From: Sphingomonas parva (ex Maeng et al. 2020)
GTDB taxonomy: Bacteria > Pseudomonadota > Alphaproteobacteria > Sphingomonadales > Sphingomonadaceae
Direction of reading: 5' to 3'
Assembly: GCF_004564275.1 (NCBI RefSeq)
Contig: NZ_SPDV01000009.1
Coordinates: 1 to 64,000 of the forward strand
DNA length: 64,000 nt
How positions within the stretch are numbered: position 1 is the first letter of the stretch; each line of letters opens with the position of its first letter. Below the pieces are notes generated by a model. It saw only the letters and a program-made list of their open reading frames with translations, did not search any database and was not told the origin of the DNA. Positions 25,213 through 57,996 of the stretch are shown here, in pieces. A program made the translations under genes and the position numbers.

Positions 25213-25241
25213 GTTATTGCGAATTTCGCAACAAATGTCAA
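25213..25241 (-). promoter_or_regulatory. promoter with S24-type operator (site 3)
   Basis: On the minus strand TTGACA occupies 25241-25236 and AATAAC lies 17 bases downstream. The perfect palindrome TTGCGAATTTCGCAA (25217-25231, seven-base arms) fills the spacer. It should control the 24.6-25.1 kb gene. The -35 context GCTTGACATT is repeated at the capsid-block promoter near 57.96 kb. Confidence 0.65.
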
Positions 25242-25268
25242 GCCCGTTTCGGAGTGGCGTCTGCGCCT

Positions 25269-25841
25269 TCACAGGTCGCGTACCGCCTTCATGACCCGGC
25301 CGACGATGGTGAATTCCTCCTGTCCAGGGAAGATCGTCTTGTGCTCGGGGTTGTGGGAACAGGGTTCGAGACGGCCGGGCTGGTCCAGATATTGCTTGAA
25401 GGTAGTCTCTCCGGACGCGTTGCGAACGACATAATAGCGTTTGGGCAGAAGCTCGCGCTGGCGGGGATCGACGACCACCGCCTCGCCTTCGCCGACGACG
25501 CGATCCATCGAATCTCCCTCGACGATCACCACGAACGAGTCGCGGCTGAGCGCCGGGTCAGGCGAGGGCATGTGGCCCCGCACGTGTTCGAATCCTTCGC
25601 GCCAGGCTCCGGCCGAAACCAGGCCGACGATCGGCAGCATGTGGGTTTTCTTGCCCGGCGCGGCATTGTCGAGGCCGAAATAGCGCCGCAGGATGTTCGC
25701 CTCCTCGAGCTTCAGGTTGCGCTTGCCTCCGAGCGTCTTGGAAAGCTTGTCGGGAGTGATGCCGATCAGGCGGGCAAGACCGACCTGGCTCTCGCCGCGC
25801 TCCCGCATCAGTTTCTTCAGCTGCTCAACGTCCATGGCCAT
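25269..25841 (-). CDS. XRE-S24 autocleavable repressor (phage CI-like)
   Basis: About 190 residues. Residues 4-58 form an XRE helix-turn-helix (ESQVGLARLIGITPDKLSKTLGGKRNLKLEE). The rest is a LexA/CI-type S24 domain with Ala77-Gly78 as the predicted self-cleavage bond (VGLVSAGAW), nucleophile Ser111 in GDSMD and catalytic Lys149 in TTFKQYL. Such proteins are cleaved when RecA is activated by DNA damage, relieving repression. Two operators lie immediately upstream and one more between this gene and the next. Two ATGs six bases apart (25841, 25835) are possible starts. It is not LexA itself, whose boxes differ. Further copies of its likely operator lie at 57950-57996. Confidence 0.88.
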   Translation of the reverse strand: MAMDVEQLKKLMRERGESQVGLARLIGITPDKLSKTLGGKRNLKLEEANILRRYFGLDNAAPGKKTHMLPIVGLVSAGAWREGFEHVRGHMPSPDPALSRDSFVVIVEGDSMDRVVGEGEAVVVDPRQRELLPKRYYVVRNASGETTFKQYLDQPGRLEPCSHNPEHKTIFPGQEEFTIVGRVMKAVRDL

Positions 25842-25856
25842 CTCTCGTCCACATTG

Positions 25857-25905
25857 GTGCGAAATTCGCAATTTTGTGCTTGAACCCTCTTTGCGAATAT
25901 CGCAA
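25857..25905. promoter_or_regulatory. paired operators of the immunity switch (sites 1 and 2)
   Basis: GTGCGAAATTCGCAA at 25857-25871 and TTGCGAATATCGCAA at 25891-25905 share the core TGCGA-N3-TCGCA, centre-to-centre distance 34 bases. They lie between the S24 repressor (minus) and a divergent plus-strand gene. The spacing and position are those of a phage-type bistable switch controlling both directions. Confidence 0.72.
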
Positions 25906-25941
25906 CCTGCGAGTCCAGGCAAGAAGATTCGGGAGCAGGCG

Positions 25942-26562
25942 ATGAGCAGAGGCAGGCCAGGACGCAAGGCAAAGCCGGGTGCGCGGTACAAATGCGGCAA
26001 GCTCCGCCCGGTGCGCGACCTTGGAAACGAAAGGGTCGCCGCCGAGGCGGCGCGCTTCGGATCCTTCCATGGCGGCAAGGGCGGCCAATGGGTGCGGGAG
26101 TCGGCCATAGGTCGCGCCTGGGCGGTCGGGCTTCTCGACGGCTTCGGGGCCGATGCGGCGGCCATCCGCGACGCCGGGCTCGGCTATGCGGCGCGCTATT
26201 GGGGCTATTACCCAAGCCCGAACGGCGTCTCCAACTACGAAGCGGAGGATCGGCGCGGCCGCGGGTGGGGTGAAAGCCAGGATCGTGGCGGAGAGATCTT
26301 CCAGCGGCTCGACAAGGCGGTGCGCGACGCAGGCCGCGCTTCCTACAAAGCGGTCCAGTCGCTCGTCGTCGACACATATTGGTTCCCGGACCGCAACCCC
26401 TCGTGGCTCGACCGGCTCATCAACGGGCGCCTTGCCGCGAGCGGCCGGACCGTCACGGGTTCTCTGCCGGTCCCCGGCGACGACGAGACCCTGCGGCTCG
26501 CGGTCGAGGGGCTGCTGACCGTGGTACAGGGCCGCGGTGGCCGCCGTCCGACTGCTCACTGA
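25942..26562 (+). CDS. hypothetical protein divergent from the S24 repressor
   Basis: A 206-residue basic protein from an ATG with GGGAGCAGG upstream. The first 25 residues are very basic (SRGRPGRKAKPGARYKCGKL), then come NERVAAEAARFGSFHGGKGG and AIGRAWAVGLLDGFGADAAAIRDAGLGYA, then a helical C-terminal half. Similar proteins with a basic start and a GRAWAAGLL-type helix occur near phage regulators in sphingomonads, but I cannot name a domain. Its position opposite the repressor, with operators in between, suggests an early or antirepressor-like gene of the same element. Confidence 0.6.
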   Translation: MSRGRPGRKAKPGARYKCGKLRPVRDLGNERVAAEAARFGSFHGGKGGQWVRESAIGRAWAVGLLDGFGADAAAIRDAGLGYAARYWGYYPSPNGVSNYEAEDRRGRGWGESQDRGGEIFQRLDKAVRDAGRASYKAVQSLVVDTYWFPDRNPSWLDRLINGRLAASGRTVTGSLPVPGDDETLRLAVEGLLTVVQGRGGRRPTAH

Positions 26563-26844
26563 CGGAATTCGCCGGCCTCGGCGGGGCGCGGCACGGCACG
26601 TATTGTTCCTGAATGGCAGCTCGACCCTCCAGGCGGCAGAGGGGGGAGCGGCCGGTTCGTCTCTCCACCGAACGTTCGGCCAGGGCCGGGGCGCATTCCC
26701 AACGATGCGCTTCGGCCCTTTTGATTCCGCTCCGCAGCAGGCTGCGGCGGTTTCCTCCGAATCGGAACAAACGTTCGGCCGTACAAGGTGGAAAAAACCA
26801 GATGCCTCAGTATGTTGCCCCCGGTTTTAGGGTGGAGCGTTGTC

Positions 26845-27421: not shown

Positions 27422-28075
27422 CTAGAAGTGGAAGGTCGCGCCCGCGCTCACCGCCCAGGGATCAAGGCGGATATGCGACTGGACCGGCGCGCCCATGAAG
27501 GTGCCCCGCGCCTCGGTATGGAGGAACGCCTTCTTGGCTTCGACGAAGATGCCCATTTTCCGGGCGACCTTGAACTCGGCGCCGATCTCGACAGCCGGCG
27601 CCAGATCGTTTTCGACCGAGGCGTCCTGAAGTGCGCCGTCGTCGACGTCGAGCACCAGCATGTAGCAGGCGCCGACACCGGCATAGGGGCTGAACGACCC
27701 GCCGCGATTGACGTGATATTGCACCATCGCGGTCGCGGGTCCGTAGGTAATTTCCGCCAGCTTGCCAGCCGGAGCGAGGGCGCCGGCTCCGTCGATGTCG
27801 ATCCGCGGCGGAAGCCCGCCGGTGAACGACAGGGCGACGTTCTCGGTGACGAAGCGTCCGATGTGGAAGGTGGGCGTGTAGTGCGTCTTGGTGTCGACCC
27901 CGGCCTCGGGCACGCGCGTGCCTGCGAGGCTGAGACGCATGTCGTCGGCCAGCGTCAGCTGCGTGACGGCGACCCGCGCGAACCATTTGGGCTTCTCGCC
28001 ATCGGCAGCATGCGCCGGCGCGGCGGCGGCGAAGAGCACCGCGAGGCTTGCCGAAAAGAAGAAACGATGAGTCAT
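27422..28075 (-). CDS. ompW: OmpW family outer-membrane protein
   Basis: A 217-residue eight-stranded beta-barrel. The signal peptide ends APAHAADG. The barrel begins WFARVAVTQLTLADD and ends with the terminal phenylalanine in VSAGATFHF. The segment FSPYAGVGACYMLVLDVDDGAL corresponds to the OmpW family stretch before the extracellular loop. It is last in a co-directional row (kinase, receiver, oxoamine synthase, OmpW, OmpW) with gaps of 44-62 bases. OmpW proteins pass small hydrophobic molecules, which is suggestive next to a possible hydrophobic-signal synthase. Confidence 0.88.
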   Translation of the reverse strand: MTHRFFFSASLAVLFAAAAPAHAADGEKPKWFARVAVTQLTLADDMRLSLAGTRVPEAGVDTKTHYTPTFHIGRFVTENVALSFTGGLPPRIDIDGAGALAPAGKLAEITYGPATAMVQYHVNRGGSFSPYAGVGACYMLVLDVDDGALQDASVENDLAPAVEIGAEFKVARKMGIFVEAKKAFLHTEARGTFMGAPVQSHIRLDPWAVSAGATFHF

Positions 28076-28119
28076 CGTGGTTTCCCGTTGTTCAGCGCGG
28101 GCGTTTCGCCCGGCTGGTG

Positions 28120-28773
28120 CTAGAAGCGGATGAGGGCACCCGCCTGGAGGATGAAAGGATCGAGCTCGGCCTTGGCCGTGATATGGGCAGGGCCGAGATC
28201 GCCGGCCGCGTCGTTCTTCCAGAAGGCCTTCTTCGCCTCCACGTAGACGCCGAAGCGGTCGCTGACGTTGAAGTCCACGCCACCCTGGATCACCGGGCCG
28301 ACGGCGTCGCCGACCTCGACGTTGCTGGCGAGACGCTCCTTCTTCGACCAGACGTGCTGCCAGCCGAGGCCGCCGCCGACATAAGGCGAGACGGTGCCGC
28401 CGCGGAGCGGATGGTAGGTGCCGGTCAGCGTGAAGATGCTGAACGTGTCGTCGAACAGGTTCGGCGTGCCGGCCAGCGAGCCGGCCGGGATGTTCGCCGT
28501 CGTTCCCGGGGTGGTCGCGCCGATCTCGACCGCGAGCTTCTCGGCCACGAAGGTGCCGAGCTCGACGCTCGCGACCCAGCGCTCCGGGGTGGTGTAGTCG
28601 GCCGCCGGATCGACGATGCCGTTGATCTTGACCGTACCTTCATCGGCCAGCTTGATCCGGGCGATGCCGACGCGGGCGAAAGTGTCCGCGTCGTCGCTGG
28701 ACTGCGCAGCCGCGGGCATCGCGGCGGTCGCGGCGAGCAGGGCGGCGGTGAGGAGGGAAGTCCGGAATTTCAT
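28120..28773 (-). CDS. ompW: OmpW family outer-membrane protein (second copy)
   Basis: A 217-residue paralogue of the next gene. The signal ends AAMPAAAQ, followed by FARVGIARIKLADEGTVKING. The family stretch GTVSPYVGGGLGWQHVWSKKE is present, and the protein ends in ILQAGALIRF, with a terminal aromatic. The two copies have diverged considerably, so this is not a recent duplication. The ATG at 28773 lies 52 bases downstream of the oxoamine synthase stop codon. Confidence 0.88.
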   Translation of the reverse strand: MKFRTSLLTAALLAATAAMPAAAQSSDDADTFARVGIARIKLADEGTVKINGIVDPAADYTTPERWVASVELGTFVAEKLAVEIGATTPGTTANIPAGSLAGTPNLFDDTFSIFTLTGTYHPLRGGTVSPYVGGGLGWQHVWSKKERLASNVEVGDAVGPVIQGGVDFNVSDRFGVYVEAKKAFWKNDAAGDLGPAHITAKAELDPFILQAGALIRF

Positions 28774-28825
28774 CGAAACAACCTTTCTGAGCGTATTCGA
28801 CCGGCCATGTGGGCCGTTAGGATGG

Positions 28826-30259
28826 TCAGCCGGCCTTGCGGAGCTCGGCGGCGGAATGGGTGAACGGAGCCTCGACGGTCTCACCCGCCTTCTTGCGGCG
28901 AGCCTTCCTCGGCTCGGCGACCAGGGCGTCGATCGTGTCGAAGTCGGCACTGCCGTCCTGCAGCGCCTCGAACTGCTTGGTCGCCTGATCGCGGGCGACG
29001 CCGAGGCGGTGGACGGAGTCGATGATGTCGCGGCTGGTGTGGCCCGCCATCACCTGCATCCGGAACCTGGCCTGGCCCTTCGGAACGGCGGGGAACTCGA
29101 CCAGATTGGCGAGCAGGCCGATGTCCGGCAGGCGACGCGCCACCAGGCGGGCGAGGCCTTCGCTGCCCATCTTGACGCAGACGATCGGAGACGGATCGCC
29201 ATAGGTTTCGAAGCTGGTGCCGTGGAGCAGCTCGCGCAGGAAGCGGATGTTGTTCATCAGGCTCTGGCGGAGCGTGGCGCCTTCCTCGGAATCGACGATC
29301 TCGAACGCTTTCAGCACGATCGCGGCCTGCGACGGCGAGAGCGCGTTGGAGAAGGTGCAGGGCGAGGAATAATATTTGAGATATTCCTTCACCGCGCGGG
29401 TGTTGGTCGCGACGAAGCCACCGTTGGAGGCGAAGGTCTTCGAGAAGCTACCCATCACCACATCGACCTTGCCGATCATGTCCTGCATGCCGATGTGGCC
29501 GCGGCCATCCGGCCCGAGGGCGCCGAGATCGTGGGCGACGTCGACCATCAGGATCGCGCCATATTCACGCGCGAGCTCCTGCAGGCCGGCGATGTCCGGC
29601 GTGTCGGAGTCCATCGAGAACAGGCTCTCGGTGATGAGGAGGATGCCGTTGTCCTTGTCCTTCGCCCGGACTGCGGCGAGCTTTTCGCGCACCGAATCCA
29701 GATTGTTGTGGCGGAACAGGTGGATGTTGCGGGTCGCCGCCTGGGCGCCTTCCTGGAGACAGGCGTGCGAGAGCGCGTCCATCACGATGTGATCGGACGA
29801 GCGAACCAGACCCTTGACCACGCCGAAGCCGGCTGCCCAGCCGGTCGGGAAGAGCGTGACCTGCTCCATCTGCAGGAATTCGGCGATCTTGCGCTCGAGC
29901 GCGAGCGAGAGCGAGGTGTTGCCGACCAGCGCGGGCGAGCCGGCGCTATGGACCCCGAACTCCTTGATCGTCTCGATCGCCACTTCGCTGATCGCCGGGT
30001 GGGCGGAGAGGCTGAGATAATCCTGCGACGCGAAGTTGATGCCTTCGAACAGCTCGCCTTCGTCGGTGCGGGCGACGCACTTGCTGCGCGGGCCGGTTTC
30101 CGTCGAGCGGCCGAGCGGCCACAGGCCGGTGTCACGGCGCAGCTCCTGCCAGTCGTAGAAAGCGTGGACACGCTCGAGGAGGTTCGATCCCGGCAGGTAC
30201 CGGAAATCGCGCATGCTTCCACCGAGCGCGCCAAAGCGCGCGTCACCCGATTCACTCAT
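28826..30259 (-). CDS. alpha-oxoamine synthase (SPT/KBL/CqsA/LqsA superfamily)
   Basis: A 477-residue fold-type I PLP enzyme that should condense an acyl-CoA with an amino acid. Motifs: SHACLQEGAQ with the PLP-stacking His (about 165), ESLFSMDSDTPDI, VDVAHDLGALGPDGRG (about 239-254) and GSFSKTFASNGG with the PLP lysine at about Lys274. The usual DEAHS motif reads DVAHD. The protein is longer than CqsA or serine palmitoyltransferase by a basic C-terminal tail of about 60 residues. Its neighbours are a membrane histidine kinase and a receiver, as in the Cqs and Lqs autoinducer loci, rather than biotin or sphingolipid genes. Function as a signal synthase is inference. ATG 30259 is preferred over an upstream frame. 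Confidence 0.82.
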   Translation of the reverse strand: MSESGDARFGALGGSMRDFRYLPGSNLLERVHAFYDWQELRRDTGLWPLGRSTETGPRSKCVARTDEGELFEGINFASQDYLSLSAHPAISEVAIETIKEFGVHSAGSPALVGNTSLSLALERKIAEFLQMEQVTLFPTGWAAGFGVVKGLVRSSDHIVMDALSHACLQEGAQAATRNIHLFRHNNLDSVREKLAAVRAKDKDNGILLITESLFSMDSDTPDIAGLQELAREYGAILMVDVAHDLGALGPDGRGHIGMQDMIGKVDVVMGSFSKTFASNGGFVATNTRAVKEYLKYYSSPCTFSNALSPSQAAIVLKAFEIVDSEEGATLRQSLMNNIRFLRELLHGTSFETYGDPSPIVCVKMGSEGLARLVARRLPDIGLLANLVEFPAVPKGQARFRMQVMAGHTSRDIIDSVHRLGVARDQATKQFEALQDGSADFDTIDALVAEPRKARRKKAGETVEAPFTHSAAELRKAG

Positions 30260-30321
30260 TTCACTAGTCCCTAGTAAGCGGGCCGAACGGCCTCTTGGCA
30301 TTATAGATGAACGCGTTCCCT

Positions 30322-30693
30322 TCAGTGCGAACGCGCAACATTTTTCTCGATCTTCGCAATGAGTTCCGGAAGTGCGACGGGCTTGGTCTCGAAATCTACG
30401 CAGCCCACTTCCACGCTCCTTCTGCGATCGCTTTCAAGCGCATGGGCAGTAAGGGCGATGATCGGAATGTGCCGAGTACGCGGATTTGCCAGAATGCGCG
30501 TCGACGCCTCCCAGCCATCCATTTCGCCGAGCGCGACGTCCATCAAGATGATGTCGGGCTGCTCTTCCTCCGCGAGCCGCACCCCTTCGGGGCCATCGAT
30601 CGCGCAGGCGATCTCGTAGCCGCGCTTGACCAATCGTCTGGTCAGCATGTCGCGGTTCATCTCATTGTCTTCGACGATCAGGACTTTTGTCAT
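30322..30693 (-). CDS. single-domain response regulator (DivK/CheY type)
   Basis: A 123-residue receiver only. It has the acidic pocket VLIVEDNEMNRDML, the phospho-acceptor in DIILMDVALGEMDGWE, the switch Thr in IIALTAHAL and the Lys in DFETKPVAL. The EDNEMNRDML sequence and lack of an output domain match DivK/CpdR-like shuttle receivers. It lies 54 bases after the histidine kinase and 62 before the oxoamine synthase, so it is probably the kinase's partner. Confidence 0.88.
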   Translation of the reverse strand: MTKVLIVEDNEMNRDMLTRRLVKRGYEIACAIDGPEGVRLAEEEQPDIILMDVALGEMDGWEASTRILANPRTRHIPIIALTAHALESDRRRSVEVGCVDFETKPVALPELIAKIEKNVARSH

Positions 30694-30747
30694 GTCAGAT
30701 CCAGTGGCTGATCAGCATGTTGCGGGGAAAAATGCGTAGGCATGGCG

Positions 30748-32151
30748 TCACCCGGCCATCGCTTCGACCGGCGCGGCGCGCGCCTCGACCGGCACGGTGA
30801 TGGTGAAGATCCGCTCCCCGGACGGCCCGTGGCTGGTGCGGATCTCGCCGTCGACGAGCGACAGGAACTTCTGGCCGAGCGCCAGGCCGATGCCGGCGCC
30901 GCCATATTTGGTGGGGCTCGCGTCGCGGTCATCGTGGAAGATGTCGAACAGGGTCTCGAGCGGCCGTCCGTCGGCAGCTCCGGCCGGGTCGATGATCCGG
31001 ATCACGCAGGTTCCCGAGCCGCCGGTGTGAACGTCGAGGTGGAGCGTCCCGCCATCCCCAGTGGAGGGCGCGCCGACGAGGATGTGCGAGAGGCCCTTGC
31101 TCAGTGCGGACCAATCGATCTCCATCAGCGTGCCGCTCTCGGGCAGCTTGCACTCGAGCGTGTAGCCCCGCTCCGCCAGGTCTGCCGAGACACTCCGGGC
31201 AATCTCGCCGATGCGTTCCCGGACATCGTCACGGCTCGGGTAGACGTCCATCTTGCCGGCGTCGATCTTGGAATAATCGAGGATGTCGTTGACCAGACGG
31301 AGCAGGTGGGTGCCGGCACCCTTGATGTTCTCGAGGTCCTGGACGATCTCGTCGTCGCCTTCGTCGATCGCGTCGTCGAGCAGCAGCTGGCTGTAGCCGA
31401 TCACCGCGTTCAGCGGCGTGCGCAGCTCATGACTGGTGCTGGCGACGAAATTCGCCTTGGCGAGGCTCGCCTGCTGGGCGGCGGCGGTGAGGCTGCGCAG
31501 ATTTTCGGCGGTGGCGAGCAGATCCCCGACCTCCCGCTCGAACTGCTGCTGCTCCTTGAGCACCCGCGCGAAATAGAGCGACATCATCGTCACGTAGACC
31601 GAGGCGCTGATCGTCGAGATGATGCCGATCACCTGGAACTGCTCGAGATCGGTTTCCGGGAACGGATAGCCGGTGAGCACCAGGGCGGCGAACAGCCCGA
31701 CGTTGAGCGTAATCAGCAGCAGCAGCCCGTCGCGGACGCGCCCCTGGGACGGGAAATAAAGGAAGGCGAGGGTGGGGGTGATCAGCACCCACGGCAGGAA
31801 GGGCGAATAGACTCCGCCATAAGCGTAGCACGCCCAGAGAATGCAAAAGAGCAGGTTCTCGACCGAGATGAAGGCGAGCACGTCATAGGCCCGCGTCCAT
31901 TTCAGCAGCGGACCGTAGACCCAGAAGGCGGTGATCGACGCGGCGAAGATCCACAGCCGGTAGTCGGCTTCCATCCCGAGGACGAAATAGAGATAGACCG
32001 GAATGACGTTGCCGAGGAACGGTCCGAAGACGTGGCTCAGCATGAACATGCGGGCGCGGCGGTGCGCATCCGGGCGCACCCGGATTTCCATCGGGATGAA
32101 ATAATCGAGAAACGCGTCGAGCCGCGACGAAACACGCTCTGCGGCACGCAT
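30748..32151 (-). CDS. membrane histidine kinase with six-TM sensor and degenerate catalytic domain
   Basis: About 467 residues. Residues 36-205 hold six hydrophobic helices, with the stretch YGGVYSPFLPWVLI between helices 3 and 4. A short coiled coil leads to the dimerisation/phospho-acceptor box FVASTSHELRTPLNAVIGYS, with a normal histidine. In the ATPase domain the N box is missing (SKGLSHILVGAPST replaces the usual NLLSNA) and the first glycine box is IIDPAGAADG. The second box GGAGIGLALG remains. The protein may be kinase-deficient and act as a phosphatase or signalling partner. Its sensor is homologous to that of the divergent kinase at 32.4 kb. Confidence 0.85.
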   Translation of the reverse strand: MRAAERVSSRLDAFLDYFIPMEIRVRPDAHRRARMFMLSHVFGPFLGNVIPVYLYFVLGMEADYRLWIFAASITAFWVYGPLLKWTRAYDVLAFISVENLLFCILWACYAYGGVYSPFLPWVLITPTLAFLYFPSQGRVRDGLLLLITLNVGLFAALVLTGYPFPETDLEQFQVIGIISTISASVYVTMMSLYFARVLKEQQQFEREVGDLLATAENLRSLTAAAQQASLAKANFVASTSHELRTPLNAVIGYSQLLLDDAIDEGDDEIVQDLENIKGAGTHLLRLVNDILDYSKIDAGKMDVYPSRDDVRERIGEIARSVSADLAERGYTLECKLPESGTLMEIDWSALSKGLSHILVGAPSTGDGGTLHLDVHTGGSGTCVIRIIDPAGAADGRPLETLFDIFHDDRDASPTKYGGAGIGLALGQKFLSLVDGEIRTSHGPSGERIFTITVPVEARAAPVEAMAG

Positions 32152-32378
32152 GGCAGTTACCCCCGATCACCCTGACGACGCCATTTCGCCGCCATTCCTG
32201 ATCGGGACCACCTAGGTGCGAGCGGTTACCGAGGTGTAAAGCAGACCCATCCGATATTTACCATGCGGAGGTTTTTCCCCTCTGCGGAGGGCCCACCCGC
32301 GTAGTGCAACGGATGCGGAATTTACCGTTAATTCAGATGCCGCCGCCTAGCTCGCCCGCAATTGAGCGGGGGAATTCG

Positions 32379-33776
32379 ATGTTGGGTGGTGTGCGCAGAC
32401 TGGTCGATCATTTCGTCCCCGAAGAGGTGCTGAGCGAACCGTCGCGTTATCCGATGTTCGCAACCTTCGTGCTGCTCCACCTCCTCGGCCCGCTGCTCGG
32501 CCATTCGGTGGTCGTCTTCCTTTACCAGGCGTCGCACGAGATCACGTGGGTGTTCTGGACGATCGAGGCGCTGATCTGCTTCTTCTGGTTGATGCCGGCG
32601 CTGGTGAAGCGCACCGGCGGGCTGATCCTGCCGGCGATGCTTTCCGTGCAGGCGCTGGTGACGCTGAGCCTGTTCGGCTCGTTCTTCTACGGCGGGATCA
32701 GCTCGCCGTTCCTGCCCTGGCTGCTGATCGCGCTGCTGCTCGGCTTCTTCTATCTGGCCGAGCACGCCCGCTTCGTTCTCACCGGCGTCGCGTTCCAGCT
32801 CGCGGTCTTCTCCGCGGCGCACTTCCTGACCGGGCAATTCCCCGATCTCGTCCCGCTCCAGAGCATGTGGCTCGCCAATCTGCTCTCGATCCTTTCGGCG
32901 CTGATCTACGTGACGCTGCTGGCCCTCTATTACGAGAGCGTGATGCGCGACAGCTCGGCGCTCCAGGAGGCGGCGATCGTCCAGCGCCGGCAGACCGAGG
33001 AGCTGCGCGAGGCGATGCGCCAGGCGGAGAAGGCGAGCGCTCAGAAGTCGATCTTCCTCGCCAAGATGAACCACGAGCTGCGCACGCCGCTCAACGCGGT
33101 GATCGGCTATAGCGAAATGCTCCGCGACGATCTCGAGGACCGGCCCGGCTCCGAGGAGAAGGTGGCGGATCTCGATCGGATCAACGCCGCGGGGCGCCAT
33201 CTCAACGCGCTGGTCAGCGAGGTGCTCGACCTCTCCCGGATCGAGAGCGACGACCTGCATCTCGACAACCACGAGATCGACCTCCACGATCTCGTCGGCG
33301 ACGCGGTCGCGACCGTCGAGCCGCTGATCAACGTCCACGGCAACCGTCTGGTCCTGCAGATGTCCCAGGATCCAGGAACGATCGTCGCGGACCCGCTCAA
33401 GCTTCGCCAGTCGCTGCTCAATCTGCTCAGCAACGCCGCCAAGTTCACCTCGAAGGGCGTGATCACCCTCACGGTGATGCGCCGCCAGACCGATGGGGGC
33501 GACGTGATCATGATCGAGGTCCGTGACACCGGCATCGGCATCTCGCGCGAGGGCCTGAAGAAGCTGTTCCGCAGCTTCAGCCAGGCGGAGGCCGATACTG
33601 CCAACCGTTTCGGTGGCACCGGTCTCGGCCTCGCCCTTACCCGTCGCTTCTGCCAGGCGATGGGCGGATCGATCGACGTCGAATCCGAGGTCGGCGTGGG
33701 GACGAGCTTCAAGATCGAGATCCCGGCGCTGCCGCGCCGCGGCGCCGACGCGGCAACCGCCGAGATGCGCGCCTAA
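32379..33776 (+). CDS. membrane histidine kinase with six-TM sensor
   Basis: About 465 residues. Six helices cover roughly residues 27-190, including LLHLLGPLLGHSVVVFLY and FYGGISSPFLPWLLIALLL, homologous to the divergent kinase. The catalytic core is complete: FLAKMNHELRTPLNAVIGYS (H box), LLNLLSNAAKFTSKG (N box), VRDTGIGISREG (G1), LFRSFSQAEA (F box) and GGTGLGLAL (G2). ATG 32379 has GGGGGAA upstream; earlier in-frame codons are unlikely. It starts the operon kinase, kinase-receiver-receiver, receiver, GGDEF-EAL. Confidence 0.9.
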   Translation: MLGGVRRLVDHFVPEEVLSEPSRYPMFATFVLLHLLGPLLGHSVVVFLYQASHEITWVFWTIEALICFFWLMPALVKRTGGLILPAMLSVQALVTLSLFGSFFYGGISSPFLPWLLIALLLGFFYLAEHARFVLTGVAFQLAVFSAAHFLTGQFPDLVPLQSMWLANLLSILSALIYVTLLALYYESVMRDSSALQEAAIVQRRQTEELREAMRQAEKASAQKSIFLAKMNHELRTPLNAVIGYSEMLRDDLEDRPGSEEKVADLDRINAAGRHLNALVSEVLDLSRIESDDLHLDNHEIDLHDLVGDAVATVEPLINVHGNRLVLQMSQDPGTIVADPLKLRQSLLNLLSNAAKFTSKGVITLTVMRRQTDGGDVIMIEVRDTGIGISREGLKKLFRSFSQAEADTANRFGGTGLGLALTRRFCQAMGGSIDVESEVGVGTSFKIEIPALPRRGADAATAEMRA

Positions 33777-33866
33777 AAACCTGTCGCAAACCTCGGGCCG
33801 TCCGACTTTCCGTCTAGAATGTACCCACAGGGGACGCGCCGCGTCCACCGAGGGGATTTCGCGAAG

Positions 33867-35795
33867 ATGAAGGTGGATCATGCGCCGAGCGGCGCGGTGA
33901 GCACGAAGACTCTGGGCGGTGCCAACGTCCTGCGGAGGTTCCTGGGAGCCTCGCTGATCGGCGCCTGCGCAGCCGGCTGGAGCGGCGGCATCGCCGCCGG
34001 CATGGCCGCCGCCGACATGTCCGCGGTGCAGATCACGATCCTCGTCCTTGCCGGAGCCGCGCTGCTTTCGGTGGCGCTTTGGGTCCTCGCCGCCCACCCG
34101 GCGCAGCGGATGGCCGTTCCGCTCGACCGGCTGCTCGAACTCGAGGCCCGCGAGAGCGGCGACCCGACGGCCCGAGCGACGATGCTCCGGCGGCTTGGCG
34201 ACATCGAAGCGGCCGCCGAGCGCGCTGCGACCGAGCTGCTCGAGCAGATGCAGAGCGATGCCGCGGCGATTGCCGAGCTTGGTCGCAGCCGCGACCAAGC
34301 GGTGAGCGCGAGCCAGGCAAAATCGCAATTCCTCACCAACATGAGCCATGAGCTGCGCACGCCGCTCAATGCGATCATCGGCTATTCGACGCTGCTCCAG
34401 GAGGATGCGATCGCCGACGGACGCCAGCAGGAGGAAGAGGATCTCGGCCGCGTTCTCGTCGCCGGCCGCAGGCTGCTGATGTTGATCAACGATATCCTCG
34501 AGCTTTCTCGCATCGAATCCGGACGCGCCGCCTACGAGCGCTCGATCATCGACGTCGCCTCGCTGGTACAGTCGGCCGTCTCCGGCTTCGACCTCGCGCG
34601 AGACGGCAACGGCAACCGCCTCGAGCTTTATGTCGAGGACCCGATCGGGATCATGATCAGCGACGCTGCCAAGGTCCGGCAGTGCCTGCTCAACCTGATC
34701 GGCAATGCGCTCAAGTTCACCCGCGACGGCGAGGTCAGGCTGTCGGCGCGCGCGGCGCGGCGCGACGGCATCGAGCTGATCGATTTCGAAGTGGTTGACA
34801 ACGGCGTCGGCATGACGCCCGAGCAGACTGCTCAGCTCTTCCACGATTGTCCGGAAGAGGTCACGATCACCCAGTCCGGCTCGCCCAAGCTCGGCCTGGT
34901 GATCACCCACCGTCTCGCCACGATGATCGGCGGCAGCGTCTCCGTCCGCAGCGTCGTTGGCGAGGGCTCCGTCTTCACACTGTCGGTTCCCCGCGAGCCG
35001 CCGAGGGCGCTCGCCGAGGACGAGGAATTGCCGATCCGCGAGCCCGCCGAGGTGCTTCGCACCGAGGGCCAGAAGACCGCGCTTGTCATCGACGACGAGA
35101 GCACCGCGATCGACATCCTGCGTCGTTGGCTGTCGAGGTTCGGCTATGCGGTGATCGCTGCGCACGACGGCGAGGCCGGCGTCGAGCTCGCTCGGAGCGC
35201 CAAGCCCGACATCATCCTGCTCGACATCTACATGCCGGGCCCGAGCGGCTACGACGTGCTCGAGGCGCTTCGGGCGGATGAAGCGCTGGCCTCGATCCCG
35301 GTGATCGTGGTCAGCGTCTCGGACGATCGCAGCCGCGGCCTGCGCGCCGGCGCCTCCGACACCCTGATGAAGCCGGTGCCCCCGGAACGGCTGCGCGAGG
35401 TGCTCGACGTCTATTGCCGTGACGTCGAAGGCGAGGTCCTGATCATCGAGGACGATGCCGATGCCGGCGAGCTGATCCGGCGCACCTCGTCCAACATCGG
35501 CCTCAGCGCCGTCCGGGCGACGAGCGGCGAGGAAGGCCTCGCGCTCGCTCGCGCCAACCCGCCCGCCGCGATCGTGCTCGATCTCGGACTCCCCGGAATG
35601 TCGGGCTTCGAGGTGCTCGCGGCGCTCGAAGCCGATGTGCGGCTGAAGAACATTCCCGTGCTGATCGTCTCCGGACGAGAGATCAGCGTCTCCGAACACC
35701 AGGCGATCACGCGCGCCCGAGGCATCTATCACGCCAAGGGCTACGCATCTCCGCGCCAGATCGCCGAAAGCCTCAAGATGGTCGTTGCACGATGA
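33867..35795 (+). CDS. hybrid histidine kinase with two C-terminal receivers
   Basis: About 642 residues. Two N-terminal membrane helices (FLGASLIGACAAGW and ITILVLAGAALLSVALWVLA) are followed by a HAMP-like helix, H box FLTNMSHELRTPLNAIIGYS, N box LLNLIGNALKFTRDG and G1 VVDNGVGMT. The G2 region is atypical (SGSPKLGLVI). Receiver 1 has ALVIDDEST, IILLDIYMPG and LMKPVP. Receiver 2 has VLIIEDDADAG and IVLDLGLPGMSG, but its lysine region reads YHAKGYAS. The receivers indicate a phosphorelay feeding the next genes. The stop overlaps the following ATG by four bases. Confidence 0.88.
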   Translation: MKVDHAPSGAVSTKTLGGANVLRRFLGASLIGACAAGWSGGIAAGMAAADMSAVQITILVLAGAALLSVALWVLAAHPAQRMAVPLDRLLELEARESGDPTARATMLRRLGDIEAAAERAATELLEQMQSDAAAIAELGRSRDQAVSASQAKSQFLTNMSHELRTPLNAIIGYSTLLQEDAIADGRQQEEEDLGRVLVAGRRLLMLINDILELSRIESGRAAYERSIIDVASLVQSAVSGFDLARDGNGNRLELYVEDPIGIMISDAAKVRQCLLNLIGNALKFTRDGEVRLSARAARRDGIELIDFEVVDNGVGMTPEQTAQLFHDCPEEVTITQSGSPKLGLVITHRLATMIGGSVSVRSVVGEGSVFTLSVPREPPRALAEDEELPIREPAEVLRTEGQKTALVIDDESTAIDILRRWLSRFGYAVIAAHDGEAGVELARSAKPDIILLDIYMPGPSGYDVLEALRADEALASIPVIVVSVSDDRSRGLRAGASDTLMKPVPPERLREVLDVYCRDVEGEVLIIEDDADAGELIRRTSSNIGLSAVRATSGEEGLALARANPPAAIVLDLGLPGMSGFEVLAALEADVRLKNIPVLIVSGREISVSEHQAITRARGIYHAKGYASPRQIAESLKMVVAR

Positions 35796-36292
35796 ACAAT
35801 TCCATGGACGTGTCCCACCTCGCCGGCCGGCGGATCATGATCGTCGACGACGTCGAGGACAATCGCGTCGTCCTCGATCGCCAGCTTCGCCGGGCGGGCT
35901 TCGAGACGGTTCTCTGCGCCGACGGCATGACGGCCGTCGCGGAGGTCTCGTCCAACCCGCCCGATCTCGTCATCCTCGACTGGATGATGCCCGGCCTTTC
36001 CGGTGTGGAGACGCTGAAGGCGATGCGCGAGCATCTCGATCTCCACCGGCTGCCGATCATCATGTGCACGGCCCGGGACGAGGAGAGCTCGATCGGCGAT
36101 GCGCTCGAGGCCGGCGCCAACGAGTATGTGCAGAAGCCGATCAAGATGCCGGTGCTGCTCGCGCGGGTCTCGGCCCAGCTGATGCGCCAGGCGGCGATGG
36201 CGGCGCTCGGCAGCGTCAACCAGGATCTCGAGGCGCTGCTCGCGCAGCGGACGCGCGAGCTGTTCGCCTCCCGCGGCAAGCCCAAGGACTGA
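35792..36292 (+). CDS. PleD-like receiver protein without output domain
   Basis: A 166-residue protein. The receiver has IMIVDDVEDNRVVLDRQL, LVILDWMMPGLSG (phospho-acceptor), IIMCTARDEE and YVQKPIKMPV. The C-terminal 40 residues form a helix (SVNQDLEALLAQRTRELFAS) of the kind that precedes output domains, but nothing follows. Its ATG overlaps the hybrid kinase stop (ATGA), so it is translationally coupled, and the GGDEF-EAL gene follows after 79 bases. It may link the kinases to c-di-GMP output. Confidence 0.88.
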   Translation: MNNSMDVSHLAGRRIMIVDDVEDNRVVLDRQLRRAGFETVLCADGMTAVAEVSSNPPDLVILDWMMPGLSGVETLKAMREHLDLHRLPIIMCTARDEESSIGDALEAGANEYVQKPIKMPVLLARVSAQLMRQAAMAALGSVNQDLEALLAQRTRELFASRGKPKD

Positions 36293-36371
36293 GCCACCAA
36301 AAAGGCAGCCCCGGCTGCCGTGAACCGCACCCGCGCCGCCTATAAGAGTCAATGTCAGCCTCGGAGTTTTC

Positions 36372-37832: not shown

Positions 37833-37983
37833 GCGCGGTCCAAGGACCCGCAGCTGCGGACTCGCTGACGGCTGAGCTTGGTTGCAATTCCTGCACCTGC
37901 AACCGCTTACGTTGCACTTGCGAACGGAATTGCTGCGGTGCACAAGGGTCGGGCCTTTCAGGCATCCTCTCCTAATGAAACTC
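37833..37983 (+). ncRNA. possible small RNA or long 3' UTR before a strong terminator
   Basis: This 151-bp stretch lies between the GGDEF-EAL stop and a textbook terminator. It contains inverted TGCAAY/GTTGCA-like repeats and the pyrimidine-rich CATCCTCTCCTAATG, an anti-Shine-Dalgarno-like segment of the kind found in some alphaproteobacterial stress sRNAs. The 13-mer TTGCTGCGGTGCA at 37930 also occurs at 10619. An open frame crossing it runs through the terminator and is not credible. There is no direct evidence of transcription as an independent RNA. Confidence 0.22.
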
Positions 37984-38011
37984 GGCCAGCCTTCGGGCTG
38001 GCCTTTTTTTT
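37984..38011 (+). terminator. intrinsic terminator of the kinase/GGDEF-EAL operon
   Basis: Stem GGCCAGCC/GGCTGGCC (8 bp) with the stable tetraloop TTCG is followed by eight T residues. This is the clearest rho-independent terminator in the window. Confidence 0.93.
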
Positions 38012-38164
38012 GTCCGATCCTATGATGCGCCGGCTACGGCCGAGCCTCAGAAAAAAGATTCGGGGAAGATGCCGCCGGAAAGACCGGCACCGGCTCGCCG
38101 TAGCAACCCTCGTCCTGATGCCGAGCCGCTTCGCTGGGCTCCGCTCGTGCCCGGTGGCGGGCGA

Positions 38165-46290: not shown

Positions 46291-46356
46291 CCGAACCTCG
46301 ACGCCGCAGTTAGACCCTTGCCGGGCCGCAGAATCGCGCGCCCAAGGGGAGGTTCG

Positions 46357-47985: not shown

Positions 47986-48153
47986 TCGGGGCGGCGGCTG
48001 CGTCCCGCACATTTCCGCATTTTTCCGTCAACGGCCGCACGCGCGGAGTCGCCGGTCCGGAGATTTGCCGAGACTGGACGTGGAATTCGTTACGCATCCG
48101 GCGCATTGCGCCATCGGGACAGAGCCGCACGAGCGGCCGAAGGATGCGCGGCG

Positions 48154-48327
48154 ATGAAGTGGAAGGGCAGGATCTCGAGCGCTCTGGCGCGGCTGGCGGA
48201 GGGTTTCCTCGCCGGTCTTGTCGTTCTCGCGGTTGCCAACATCGGTTTCGTCGCGGCCGATGGCGGCAGCGATCACGCCCAGGCCCGCCGCTCCTCGTTC
48301 CTCGCGCTGGACGTCCTCGCCCGCTGA
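48154..48327 (+). CDS. 57-residue membrane peptide
   Basis: MKWKGRISSALARLAEGFLA is followed by a hydrophobic helix (GLVVLAVANIGFVAADGG) and a short polar tail. A weak AGGATG precedes the ATG. Function unknown. Confidence 0.4.
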   Translation: MKWKGRISSALARLAEGFLAGLVVLAVANIGFVAADGGSDHAQARRSSFLALDVLAR

Positions 48328-48375
48328 CGCGGGACGCACCACAGCAAAGCATCGGCCGCCTCCAGCGACCGCACC

Positions 48376-49134
48376 CTATTTGAGCTCGAGCGCCGCCTTG
48401 ACGGTGTCGACATAGCTCGGGCCGACCTGGACGTTGGTGCTGTCGGTGAGGACGACGTGCATCGTCCGCCCGGCGCGGCGGACCTCCGCCACCCGGTCCG
48501 GCCGGACGAAGGCGGAGCGATGGACGCGGATCAGCGCACTGCCGGCGAGCTTCTCCTCGAGCGCAGCCATGGTGATGCGGAGCAGGTGGCTGCGCACCGC
48601 CGTATGGAGCAGGACGTAGTCGCGCGCGGCCTCGATCCAGTCGATATCCTCGATCGGCACGCGGCGCTGGCCGTTGGTCTCGAGGATCCAGAAGGCAAGC
48701 TCGGACGAGGCGCCGCCGGCACGCAGGGAATCGACCTCGGCCTCGAGCGCGCTGACCCGACCCGCCTGCTCGCGCAGGGTGCGGCGGCGCCGCGCCCGCT
48801 CGACCGCCTGGCGCAGGCGATCGAAGCGCACCGGCTTCAGCAGATAATCGGCCGCCTCGACCTCAAACGCGTCGGGCGCGTAATGTTCGTGGGCGGTGAC
48901 GAAGACGAGCTCCGGGCGCGGGGTGATGTCGAGCGCCGCCGCGGTGCGCAGACCGTTGCGGCCGGGCATCTGCACGTCGAGCACGACGAGATCCGGCTTC
49001 AGCGCGGCAATCGCGGCAAGCGCCTGATCGCCGTCCTCGGCCTCGCCGACGACCTCGACCCCGCCGATGTCCCCGAAGAATGTCTTGAGCCTGTCGAGCG
49101 CCAACGGCTCGTCATCGACCAGAAGTACGCGCAT
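48376..49134 (-). CDS. LytTR response regulator
   Basis: A 252-residue AlgR/LytR-type regulator. The receiver has VLLVDDEPLALDRLKTFF, LVVLDVQMPGRNG (acceptor Asp), VFVTAHEHYAPDAFE and YLLKPVRFDRL. A linker leads to the LytTR DNA-binding domain (IPIEDIDWIEA-like start, LLHTAVRSHLLRITMAALEE, LIRVHRSAFVRPDRV). It pairs with the LytS-type kinase whose gene ends 56 bases upstream, and would bind direct repeats in promoters. Confidence 0.92.
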   Translation of the reverse strand: MRVLLVDDEPLALDRLKTFFGDIGGVEVVGEAEDGDQALAAIAALKPDLVVLDVQMPGRNGLRTAAALDITPRPELVFVTAHEHYAPDAFEVEAADYLLKPVRFDRLRQAVERARRRRTLREQAGRVSALEAEVDSLRAGGASSELAFWILETNGQRRVPIEDIDWIEAARDYVLLHTAVRSHLLRITMAALEEKLAGSALIRVHRSAFVRPDRVAEVRRAGRTMHVVLTDSTNVQVGPSYVDTVKAALELK

Positions 49135-49190
49135 CCCCGCTCCACGTAACCCGCGGAGCCCGACCGAGACGGTGACTCCGCTGCCAGAGT

Positions 49191-50357
49191 CTATACCGCA
49201 ACGCTTTTCGGCTTGTCACGCCGCCGCGCCGCCGCGGGCGCCGCCGGCGCCGGGCTGTCGCCGGCGGGATCGGCGGTGCGCCCGTCCCGTTTCGAGGCAG
49301 GAATGCGGATCTCGGCCGAGAACAGGCGTTCGTCGGCATCTGTCGTCAGGCTGGCGGCGGCGCCGTAGACCGCCTCGAGGCGTCGGCGAACGTTGGCGAG
49401 CCCGACGCCCGCGCCTGCACTCGACTCCTCTTCGGGCAGGTCGACACGGTCGTTCTCGACGCGGATACACACCATGCCGCCCTCAAGACGCGCAGCGATG
49501 CGGATCGTGACCAGGCCGCGCGCGGGGGCAACCCCGTGCTTCACCGCATTCTCCACGAGCGGCTGGACGAGAAAGCCGGGAATCAGCTGGCCGCCGGCCG
49601 CAGGCTCGCACGAAAGCGCAATGCTCAGCTTGCGGCCGAAGCGAACCGCCTCGATGTCGAGATATTCCTCGACCAGCGACAGCTCCTCGTCGACCGGGAC
49701 CAGCTCGGAAGGATCGAAGGCGAGGGACGTGCGGAGGAAACGCGAGAGCTTCTCGGTCATCTCCTCGGCATCGTCGTTCCGCCGGGTGACGATCAGCGCC
49801 GAGATCGAATTCAGCGTATTGAACAGGAAATGCGGATTGAGCTGGTAGCGCAGGGCGGTGAGCTGGGCCTGCTGGGCGCGCTCGCGCGCCTCCGCGAGCT
49901 GGCGATCGCGCGCCGCGCTCCACCGCCGCGCGAACGCGAACTGAAACAGCGCGACGTTCACCGCGAAGACGCAGAAATAGTTGAACGCGGCGCCGAACCG
50001 GCGGCGCATGTTCTGCGGCAGGTCCTGCCAGGTCTCCATGAAATTGCGTTCGACGAGGCTGGTGACCAGATAGTCGAACAGGGTCTGGGCCAGTGCGGCG
50101 GCGACCACGCCGGCGAGCAGGATCGCGGCGCGCTGCAGGTTCGGCCAGCCGAGCGTCCGCCGATAGAGCGCGAACAGGCCGAGCGCGAGGAGCATCGACA
50201 GCAGGACGGCGGACCCGTCGAGGGCAACGCTGGCGAGATCGCGCGTGCGGTGCCGCTCGAGCATCATCGGCAGGAAGATCAGCAGGATGAACAGCCAGAG
50301 ACCGACGGTGTGGAAGATCGCCTCGCGCCAGGACGCATGGGCCTTGAGATCGTGCAA
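49191..50357 (-). CDS. LytS-type sensor histidine kinase
   Basis: About 388 residues. Four membrane helices occupy the first about 150 residues. They are followed by the His_kinase signature LTALRYQLNPHFLFNTLNSI (phospho-acceptor His in NPHFLFN), VDEELSLVEEYLDIEAVRFG, the ATPase stretch PGFLVQPLVENAVKHGV, and GAGVGLANVRRRLEAVYG. The chosen TTG at 50357 has AGGGGAAG upstream; the frame is open to a GTG at 50402 without a ribosome-binding site. It is the partner of the downstream LytTR regulator. Confidence 0.88.
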   Translation of the reverse strand: MHDLKAHASWREAIFHTVGLWLFILLIFLPMMLERHRTRDLASVALDGSAVLLSMLLALGLFALYRRTLGWPNLQRAAILLAGVVAAALAQTLFDYLVTSLVERNFMETWQDLPQNMRRRFGAAFNYFCVFAVNVALFQFAFARRWSAARDRQLAEARERAQQAQLTALRYQLNPHFLFNTLNSISALIVTRRNDDAEEMTEKLSRFLRTSLAFDPSELVPVDEELSLVEEYLDIEAVRFGRKLSIALSCEPAAGGQLIPGFLVQPLVENAVKHGVAPARGLVTIRIAARLEGGMVCIRVENDRVDLPEEESSAGAGVGLANVRRRLEAVYGAAASLTTDADERLFSAEIRIPASKRDGRTADPAGDSPAPAAPAAARRRDKPKSVAV

Positions 50358-50605
50358 GCTTCGCTTCCCCTGGACGCATCGTGCGGTGCGCGCCCCTGTC
50401 ACGTTCGAAGCCGCGGGCCGTGGCAGGGAGACGCCTGCGGCCTAGGTGGCGGAAAAGCGCGACCGGAGCAATCGGACATGTGCCGCCACGCCGAGAGGGG
50501 GGAGACGAAGGACACGGGAAAGTCGATGCAAGCGGGTCCTGCAAAAAGGAGCGGTTTGTGCCACCTGGCGTTCCATGATATGCCAGATGGCAAGGAGACG
50601 TGCGG

Positions 50606-54653: not shown

Positions 54654-54665
54654 GCGGCTCCGCCG

Positions 54666-55076: not shown

Positions 55077-55397
55077 ATGAACGAGCTGTCCGACGCGCAG
55101 CGCGTGGAGCGCGCCGCCCGCGCGCGCCGCGCGATCGAGGAATTCCTCGCTCCCGCGCTCGGCCGGGCGCACGAGACATTTTCAGCCCGGCTGAAAGACA
55201 TCTGCGCGCGCGAGCCCTGGGCCGCCGATCGGATCGCGGCGCTGGCGAACGCGATCCGCATCCTGGAGGAGCTCGGCAAGGACCTCGAGGCAGCGATCCA
55301 CGACGGCGATGCCGCCGCCCAGGCGCTGCTGCGCGCCGAGAAATATGAGAGGCTGACACCGGCGCGCCGCCGCCTGCTGGGCATCGGGCCATTCTGA
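55077..55397 (+). CDS. small helical protein, possibly phage-derived
   Basis: A 106-residue all-helical protein (DAQRVERAARARRAIEEFLA, GRAHETFSARLKDICAREPW, DRIAALANAIRILEELGKDL). It has the size and helix pattern of small proteins encoded near terminase or head genes in alphaproteobacterial phages, but no motif proves it. It is on the same strand as the virion genes and lies between blocks A and B, so it may be a remnant linking them. Confidence 0.45.
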   Translation: MNELSDAQRVERAARARRAIEEFLAPALGRAHETFSARLKDICAREPWAADRIAALANAIRILEELGKDLEAAIHDGDAAAQALLRAEKYERLTPARRRLLGIGPF

Positions 55398-55942: not shown

Positions 55943-56069
55943 CTGCTCCTGCCCCTCGTGGAGGTGCAATCATGCGCAGCCGACCGGCATTTGCAATGGC
56001 CGCCGGACGGCGCCCGCCGATTTTCCGGCACGCCCGTCCGATCACCCGCGCGGGGAGCCGCGGCGCAGA

Positions 56070-56908: not shown

Positions 56909-56997
56909 CGGTCTGCTCTACCAATGTCCTCACCTCACGCAAACGGTTGCGCGCCCGGCCGGGCCGGAGGTGCGCCGAACCTGCGGCAGCGGGACCG

Positions 56998-57273
56998 TCA
57001 GCCCCGGGCGGCGAGAAGCAGCCCGAGGACGAGCAGCGCCGCCTGGCCGATCGCGATCACCCGGAGGCGGCTCGAAAAGGGTTGCTTGCGGCTCTTGTGT
57101 CGAAGCCATCGGCGGGCGAGCAGCGCGCCGGGCGTGCCGCCGACGAGCGCAAGACGGAGGAGATGGGCTTCGGGCACGCGCCGGCCGCCGGCGCGGGCCC
57201 GCGCCTTGTCGTGCGCGAAGAGCAGGATCGTCCAGACGTTGACGACGACGAGCATGGCGAGGACGGGGAGCAT
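56998..57273 (-). CDS. DUF1294 membrane protein
   Basis: A 91-residue protein. The family signature is clear: LLFAHDKARARAGGRRVPEA, then HLLRLALVGGTPGALLARRW, then HKSRKQPFSSRL. Helices at both ends anchor it in the membrane. Function unknown. Some family members are fused to cold-shock domains. Confidence 0.9.
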   Translation of the reverse strand: MLPVLAMLVVVNVWTILLFAHDKARARAGGRRVPEAHLLRLALVGGTPGALLARRWLRHKSRKQPFSSRLRVIAIGQAALLVLGLLLAARG

Positions 57274-57319
57274 CGCGAGACGGTGCGGCGGTCGAGATTA
57301 AGCGAAGGTTAGCCGCGCG

Positions 57320-57658
57320 GTGCGGAGGCGGCCGCTTGCCGCGCCGACGTCTGTCCTTCGCGACGATGCTCTATCCCTGGTTCGTCGGTCTGCTCAGCGA
57401 GGATCCAAGCATGACGTTGCGCCGATCGGTAAACGGCACGCGCGGAAGGCTTCCGCACGCTTCGGCCTGCTGCTCGCCGGCTTTCTCCCGGCGATGATCG
57501 TGCATTACGCGATCGGCTATGGCGCGTTCGGGCAGCCGCAGCCGATTTTCTGGGTCCTGATGGTCGTCGATGCCGGCGTTGTGGCGCTGCTCGCGCTGCT
57601 GCGCGCCTCAACCGATCACAGCCTGTACCAGCTGGCCGCGCGCCGCGGCGCGGAATGA
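57320..57658 (+). CDS. small two-TM protein, start uncertain
   Basis: The C-terminal 65 residues of this frame hold two hydrophobic helices (FGLLLAGFLPAMIVHYAIGY and IFWVLMVVDAGVVALLALLR). The upstream part is basic and low-complexity, and no good start codon lies close to the first helix; GTG 57320 is the only one. It may be a short real membrane protein with a non-standard start. Confidence 0.35.
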   Translation: MRRRPLAAPTSVLRDDALSLVRRSAQRGSKHDVAPIGKRHARKASARFGLLLAGFLPAMIVHYAIGYGAFGQPQPIFWVLMVVDAGVVALLALLRASTDHSLYQLAARRGAE

Positions 57659-57661
57659 GGC

Positions 57662-57850
57662 TCAGCGCCGGGCGCGCGACTCGGCGTCGGCCGGCACCAG
57701 CAGGGGAACGTTGCGCAGCGCCCGGCGCATCAGCAGGATGGCGATCAAAGCGGCGCCCAACGCCGGCCAGAACGGATTTTCGACGAGCAGGTCCATCGAG
57801 CCGGTTCCGCCGGCGGCGACGATCGATCCGAGAAGATATGCGCGTTCCAT
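57662..57850 (-). CDS. 62-residue membrane peptide
   Basis: MERAYLLGSIVAAGGTGSMD is followed by a helix (FWPALGAALIAILLMRRALR) and a polar tail. It lies convergent to the preceding small membrane gene. Function unknown. Confidence 0.4.
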   Translation of the reverse strand: MERAYLLGSIVAAGGTGSMDLLVENPFWPALGAALIAILLMRRALRNVPLLVPADAESRARR

Positions 57851-57949
57851 GACTGTGCTGATCGCGCGACGGAGGTCACGGCCCGGTAACTGCGGCGTTC
57901 CGTAGGATTCCGTATGCGCGGGATAGAGCCGCGGATTTCCGGCTGCTTC

Positions 57950-57996
57950 ATGCGATTTTCGCTTGACATTGGTGTCGTTCTGTGCGATTTTCGCAA
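57950..57996 (+). promoter_or_regulatory. capsid-block promoter with two S24-type operators (sites 4 and 5)
   Basis: ATGCGATTTTCGCTT (57950-57964) and GTGCGATTTTCGCAA (57982-57996) share the TGCGA-N3-TCGC core and 15-bp length of the operators at 25.2-25.9 kb. A consensus TTGACA at 57963-57968 overlaps the first site. The second covers the -10 position. The GCTTGACATT context is the same as at the 25.24 kb promoter. The next plus-strand gene is the scaffold at 58131. Confidence 0.65.

Follow-up and report, generated by a model that had tools for sequence, protein, structure and literature searches.

The repressor locus and the distal promoter

The window analyzed here comprises positions 1-64000 of contig C9 (162432 bp) of Sphingomonas parva (genome G000, 4.49 Mb in a 111-contig assembly). 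It encodes an XRE-S24 (LexA/CI-like) repressor, referred to below as rep, and operator-like sites were found both around this gene and 32.1 kb away, at a promoter ahead of phage scaffold and capsid genes. The sites are described relative to the reference motif TTGCGA-N3-TCGCAA, its core TGCGA-N3-TCGC and the form TGCGA-WWW-TCGC (W-form). The features concerned are as follows.

24580-25122, minus strand: p180, unknown protein behind the operator at 25217
25217-25231: operator within the TTGACA promoter of p180 (minus-strand -35 at 25241-25236); exact match
25272-25841, minus strand: rep, repressor of 190 aa (PF00717, phrog_4); stop codon at 25269-25271
25857-25871: repressor-side operator, GTGCGAAATTCGCAA; one mismatch
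25891-25905: repressor-side operator, TTGCGAATATCGCAA; exact match
25942-26562, plus strand: p206, phage-derived protein adjoining rep, with homologues in viral contigs
57950-57964: distal operator 1, ATGCGATTTTCGCTT, abutting the -35 box; three mismatches, core intact; orthologous sites at 548488 in genome G298 and 767697 in genome G301
57963-57968, plus strand: -35 box (TTGACA) of the distal promoter, with TTGAC unchanged in the three species
57982-57996: distal operator 2, located where a -10 element is expected; one mismatch
58131-59126, plus strand: head scaffolding protein, likely start 58131 (phrog_3927, E 4e-8; 46% identity to viral contig L334)
59236-60195, plus strand: SU10-type major capsid protein (PF17236, E 3e-99; 73% identity to L334)

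The rep protein combines a helix-turn-helix (HTH) domain with an S24 peptidase domain, as expected of an SOS-cleavable phage repressor. Peptidase_S24 (PF00717) was matched with an E value of 5e-17, phrog_4 was the PHROG match, the HTH_31 match (26.0 bits) fell slightly below the 27-bit cut-off, and LexA structures were found by sequence search. The residues of S24 self-cleavage are intact (A78-G79, S112 and K150). As stated in the original prediction, three of its five sites lie around this XRE-S24 gene. The dN/dS ratio was 0.07-0.16 for rep, 0.17-0.26 for p206 and 0.07-0.12 for one host gene, the synonymous distances of rep and p206 being near saturation. Rep evolves under constraint (purifying selection).

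The operators at 25857 and 25891 lie 34 bp apart, between rep and p206, and a rep-side pair with identical spacing is present in the related genomes G298 (504120/504154) and G301 (807257/807291). The third near site, 25217, follows the TTGAC-operator plan of the promoters downstream of rep in related phages. Searches of Pfam, PHROG and NCBIfam gave no match for p180 and no family name for p206, which has 53-54% identity to proteins encoded upstream of the large terminase subunit (TerL) in viral contigs L163 and L249. Orthologues of p206 adjoin rep in G298 and G301. The term "immunity switch", used in the original prediction for this locus, is overstated: rep and p206 look like a remnant.

The distal pair straddles TTGACA ahead of the scaffold and capsid genes, an arrangement borne out by the coordinates and by the family matches. 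The scaffold start is located ~135 bp downstream of this promoter, with a ribosome-binding-like AAAGG at 58120-58124. A common -35 context had been proposed for the two distant promoters, and GCTTGACATT does occur in both; the relatives keep only GCTTGAC, and the shared ATT is therefore not special.

Statistical support for the sites

The five coordinates given in the original prediction are correct. All five sites retain the core and the W-form, although it is generous to say that 57950, with its three mismatches, fits the motif. The sequence TGCGA-N3-TCGCA was seen four times in the 160 kb of C9 scanned, against 0.49 expected under a second-order Markov model, which gave an expectation of 0.28 for the W-form carried by the five reported sites. 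We built a matrix solely from the three repressor-side sites and scored it blind along the same 160 kb. Site 57982 came first among the remaining positions (23.5 bits), and the maximum in 40 dinucleotide shuffles of 64 kb was 22.3 bits; this site stands out statistically. Site 57950 scored 13.2 bits, against 13.0 for the top unreported place, and the shuffles contained a mean of 1.25 places at 13 bits or more. This site is notable through its position and conservation only, not through its matrix score.

Across the 4.49 Mb, the exact motif is found in two places, both at the repressor. With up to one mismatch there are 17 places, including four of the reported sites and four in promoters with LexA boxes (contigs C16, C25, C33 and C104), and with up to two mismatches there are 164, against 71 for the reversed pattern. 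The W-form occurs at seven unique places in the rest of the genome, for which the two controls conflict (Markov model, ~7.5; reversed pattern, 1 in the whole genome), and no enrichment outside C9 is claimed.

These counts bear on the idea that the palindromes at the far promoter arose by chance or serve a different regulator, which the mismatches of 57950 and the 164 places at up to two mismatches would favor. We consider it highly improbable, given the blind matrix match at 57982 and the strict retention of both dyads, equally spaced, in three species each of which carries this repressor.

Conservation of the distal promoter in two relatives

The comparison covered 26 genomes of the genus, including that of the window, with 120 kb fetched around rep from each of G298 and G301 (assemblies of 2 and about 30 contigs). 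Close repressors were found in two of the 25 other genomes, G298 (79% identity) and G301 (77%), at the same chromosomal place. Synteny between the three species extends over 10968-19308, 22477, rep, p206, the response-regulator gene at 38165, 53613, 56579, the BLUF gene at 61326 and 83586-88808 (window and contig coordinates); for the response-regulator gene at 61972, G298 alone gave a syntenic match. The 120 kb of each relative lacked the blocks 27422-37832 and 46318-50402, except that the GGDEF/EAL gene at 36372 matches elsewhere in the fetched stretch.

61326-61940, plus strand: BLUF photoreceptor gene, host synteny marker (PF04940; G298 549986, G301 766953)

The W-form is present in these 120-kb stretches only as the rep pair and one far site each. 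The far site lies 44.4 kb from rep in G298 and 39.6 kb in G301. Its promoter has the same plan in all three species, TGCGA-N3-TCGC-TTGAC followed by a spacer and, at operator 2, by GTGCGATTT-N-CGCAAAT, with equal spacing throughout. The spacer from the -35 element to operator 2 is divergent in sequence and equal in length. The far site of G298 and G301 is thus the orthologue of the capsid promoter of the window, and the sequences support the view that one operator family serves both the repressor locus and the distal promoter. The BLUF gene, downstream of the scaffold/capsid block, follows the repressor-type promoter in all three species and could itself be the ancestral target.

Phage-type genes persist in G301, in which a GH19 endolysin gene adjoins tRNA-Val at the syntenic end. 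The syntenic place in G301 also has a gene resembling that at contig positions 70962-73109, which was matched in a prophage- and capsid-bearing contig of G316 as well.

Behind the far promoter, G298 and G301 share a 97-bp element, 86% identical between the two, with strong hairpins and a terminator-like hairpin at its end (L231 8612-8734, plus strand; L232 17490-17610, minus strand). It folds better than shuffled sequences (z of -3.8 and -2.6). No match to it was found in C9 or in the other loci compared, its pattern had no matches in the viral contigs, and Rfam returned only a sub-threshold match to BjrC68 (20.8 against 39 bits). We consider this element to be a candidate small RNA, possibly a new one.

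Dispersed phage genes in the window

Other genes of the window are listed below.

27422-37832: host block of nine genes, OmpW-OmpW-aminotransferase-RR-HK-HK-HK/RR-RR-GGDEF/EAL (RR, response regulator; HK, histidine kinase), collinear in G314, G297 and G305
42335-42577, plus strand: possible small terminase subunit directly before TerL, read from the sequence alone
42543-43850, plus strand: TerL (PF04466, phrog_3717; 65% identity to the phage of genome G206)
43850-45928, plus strand: SU10-type portal protein (PF23899, E 8e-152; 42% identity to the G206 phage)
55077-55397, plus strand: small phage gene (50% identity to L334 6422-6742, located there between portal and scaffold)
62806-63135, plus strand: small virion-region protein (phrog_3982)
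63137-63781, plus strand: SU10-type adaptor (PF24175)

The terminase and portal genes were absent from the list given in the original prediction. Tail-type genes identified by PHROG matches follow the adaptor, up to about contig position 69778; the gene at 68069-69778 lacks a PHROG match and has 40% identity to L334. In the window, these genes follow the order seen in a phage, with host genes in between, and the head and adaptor genes are open frames. The portal, major capsid and adaptor of an SU10 virion module are thus present, without the compact late block. L334, the closest capsid relative (73%) among the 80 loci kept, has portal, small gene, scaffold, capsid and adaptor as one compact run. 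The gap between the portal and capsid matches is 13.3 kb in the window, against 1.27-5.73 kb in 39 related loci and 1.23-6.40 kb in 56, all loci in which both genes were found.

Pfam searches revealed no integrase family among the subset of ORFs covered (50 in the window and 16 further along the contig, to about 82 kb), nor was any gene for an integrase, replication or lysis recognized with the SU10 genes in the parts scanned.

An interleaved arrangement of this kind could in principle be produced by an assembly error, with an ordinary prophage mis-joined to host contigs, and the 111 contigs of the assembly leave room for such joins. However, several independent alternations of phage and host genes would all have to be wrong, and the two relatives confirm the surrounding host order; this explanation is very unlikely.

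Three other features were observed on this contig. A LexA-type box (40381-40397, minus strand) lies upstream of the acetyltransferase gene 39621-40289, between the host and phage blocks. The Rfam family RF00519 (suhB/mmgR small RNA) was matched at 37946-38018, adjoining a response-regulator gene. The stretch at the contig end (154219-159890) has a low codon score and encodes a protein that we take to resemble TnsA of Tn7-like elements.

The motif and the repressor in viral contigs

Viral contigs contained 111 relatives of rep, of which the top 80 were retained and the first 37 of these (L254-L290) scanned. The dyad TGCGA-N3-TCGCA lies within 400 bp of rep in 18 of the 37 loci; L258 has a looser form near rep, and neither form was found in the other 18. 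Given these 18 dyad-bearing loci, the motif is a signature of this repressor group, though not of every member. Ten viral loci were displayed because a pair of dyads follows rep in them; the two members of each pair are separated by 33-35 bp, and TTGAC stands between them in nine of the loci. The far promoter differs in plan: operator 1 abuts TTGAC, and operator 2 starts 19 nt past the start of TTGACA, against ~9-12 in the ten loci. The far promoter as a moved copy of the rep-proximal phage promoter was accordingly rejected.

In L256 and L257, the order is rep, p206, TerL (identities of 59%, 36% and 50%, respectively). The distance from rep to p206 is 5.5 kb in these phage contigs, whereas the two genes adjoin in all three species of the genus.

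Composite promoters with LexA-type boxes

The genome contains eight LexA-type boxes of the form TAGAAC-N7-GAAC, and in five of them TTGCGA-N-AATCRC is located exactly 10 bp upstream (first bases on the plus strand: C16:5950, C25:38631, C27:6753, C33:49049 and C104:2309). The C16 composite has an additional operator-like sequence, CTGCGATGATCGCAA, upstream, and the composites of C16 and C25 head DUF5681 genes. With up to two mismatches, the 26 genomes yielded five composites in G000, one in G298 and none in the other 24, including the repressor-bearing G301. The composite is suggestive of an overlap between the repressor and LexA regulators, a weak and post hoc indication. On the small contig C104, a predicted protein (L027 1-486, minus strand) about 1.8 kb from the composite site resembles a contractile-tail sheath.

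Origin of the remote target

We favor, with a probability of about 0.6, the view that a self-cleavable repressor and a remote target promoter are the legacy of an old prophage and were both inherited vertically, with capsid genes standing on that promoter in the window's species. The ancestor of at least three species of the genus would have carried an SU10-type prophage, from which the stretch between rep and p206 was lost, leaving the two genes side by side. A shared loss of this stretch is the simplest account of their present arrangement, and therefore suggests a degenerate prophage in the common ancestor. The survivors of vertical descent would be rep, the operator pair beside it and, 32-44 kb off across host genes, a promoter with a second pair of operators. 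At the remote promoter, the repressor would sit on two dyads around TTGAC and block RNA polymerase; such occlusion is likely, since the dyads overlap the upstream end of the -35 element and the region in which a -10 element is expected. RecA-stimulated self-cleavage relieves repression in the CI and LexA family. On DNA damage, activated RecA would thus lead the repressor to cleave itself and the remote promoter to open, feeding the candidate small RNA in G298 and G301. In the window's species, scaffold and capsid lie directly behind the promoter, and virion genes should therefore be SOS-inducible. Alongside the sites, gene content, synteny, conservation and purifying selection on rep that are observed, we infer binding, cleavage and transcription, and also the presence of capsid genes in the ancestor rather than their later insertion.

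Several results weigh against this view. Searches of the 120 kb from G298 and from G301 revealed no trace of terminase, portal, scaffold or capsid genes (E <= 0.05), and capsid genes under the far promoter are therefore seen in one genome only. Related capsid loci were searched over 3 kb upstream of the capsid gene, on both strands, and an operator was found in 0 of 39 and 0 of 80 kept loci (in 8 of the 80, the upstream DNA was shorter than 600 bp); a match anywhere in the loci was found in 3 of 102 (L097, L118 and L142) and 1 of 80 (L387). Operators before capsid genes are thus ruled out as a habit of the phage group. The G206 phage, which has a repressor homologue and a capsid gene, has dyads only beside the repressor; among the genes that precede TerL in this phage, the repressor alone had a match in C9 1-160000, and a search confined to C9 revealed no homologue of the final genes of the phage or of the endolysin of G301. 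The strict dyad is missing near rep in 19 of the 37 viral repressor loci, including L254 (59% identity). Site 25217 has no counterpart in G298 or G301, the distal promoter has no good -10 match, and 57950 taken alone is a weak site.

The original prediction had an SOS-cleavable repressor still governing virion genes embedded among host genes. The shared operator family, the cleavage residues, the interleaving and the orthologous promoter in two sister species are borne out. Control of virion genes as the reason for the link is not supported: in G298 and G301 no capsid gene follows this promoter, and related capsid loci lack the operator. The observed sites are largely real, and the inference drawn from them is half right. 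The remote repressor target is conserved, but its age or its range exceeds that of the capsid genes now behind it.

Given the absence of capsid traces in the two relatives, the restriction of the G206 dyads to the repressor and the negative searches upstream of capsid genes, a serious rival is that the window's species acquired the capsid block by insertion at a later time. The repressor and the remote promoter for the small RNA would then form an old host regulon, with virion expression incidental, and the promoter and candidate RNA in both relatives fit this account. However, it requires several insertions that kept phage order (TerL-portal, the 55077 gene, scaffold-capsid and adaptor-tail), p206, beside rep in three species, belongs to the same kind of phage, and phage-type genes persist in G301. 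We regard it as possible, though less probable than a prophage origin of the whole arrangement.

The open head and adaptor frames, the scattering of the genes among host genes and the purifying selection on the repressor would also be compatible with a domesticated element resembling a gene transfer agent (GTA), in which the dispersed genes would still yield particles and the repressor would control them. No endolysin homologue was found in the fetched part of C9. The structural genes of a GTA would be vertically conserved, whereas a capsid homologue is present in three of the 26 genomes, with neither repressor-keeping relative among them; we consider this reading unlikely. A broader proposal, in which a domesticated SOS-cleavable repressor runs a scattered regulon comprising a remote small RNA in some species and dispersed, SU10-type, GTA-like capsid genes in another, and which may overlap LexA promoters, is speculative and, in our estimation, quite unlikely.

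Relationship to known systems

In lambda CI and LexA, a DNA-binding domain is joined to an S24 domain with Ala-Gly, Ser and Lys, and a divergent operator pair lies beside the gene. Rep shares this domain plan, these residues and the operator pair; the difference is a second pair, 32-44 kb away past host genes and kept without the phage. The portal, capsid and adaptor families (PF23899, PF17236 and PF24175) and the gene order are those of SU10-type phages, but the genes are here split by host genes. DicA is a regulator linked to dicBF of the Qin cryptic prophage. Like the present system, dicBF involves a prophage-remnant promoter controlling a small RNA (PMC10448788). The RNA described here is a predicted one, however, and it is tied to a remote promoter and a self-cleaving type of repressor.

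The nearest parallel in the literature searched is RogA of Caulobacter crescentus, reported to be a LexA-like GTA repressor that lacks cleavage residues and acts by repressing the activator genes gafYZ (PMC9632790). Both are LexA/CI-like HTH and S24-type repressors tied to domesticated phage genes in an alphaproteobacterium. However, RogA controls a GTA through gafYZ (PMC9632790), whereas the present system, for which particles would be hypothetical, has intact cleavage residues and predicted operators on the scaffold/capsid promoter itself. The literature searched, mostly without subscription papers, contained no paper on this locus and no case in which an intact S24 repressor acts on scattered virion genes directly through operators.

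Comparative sequence analysis alone thus provides a case of a prophage-type repressor with a second target tens of kilobases off, beyond host genes, which was kept without the capsid genes. It suggests that a tamed phage switch may still control leftover virus genes. If the capsid genes respond to the repressor in this species, the locus would offer a natural experiment on the transfer of virion genes from phage to host control, and on SU10-type phages as a possible starting point for new gene transfer agents.

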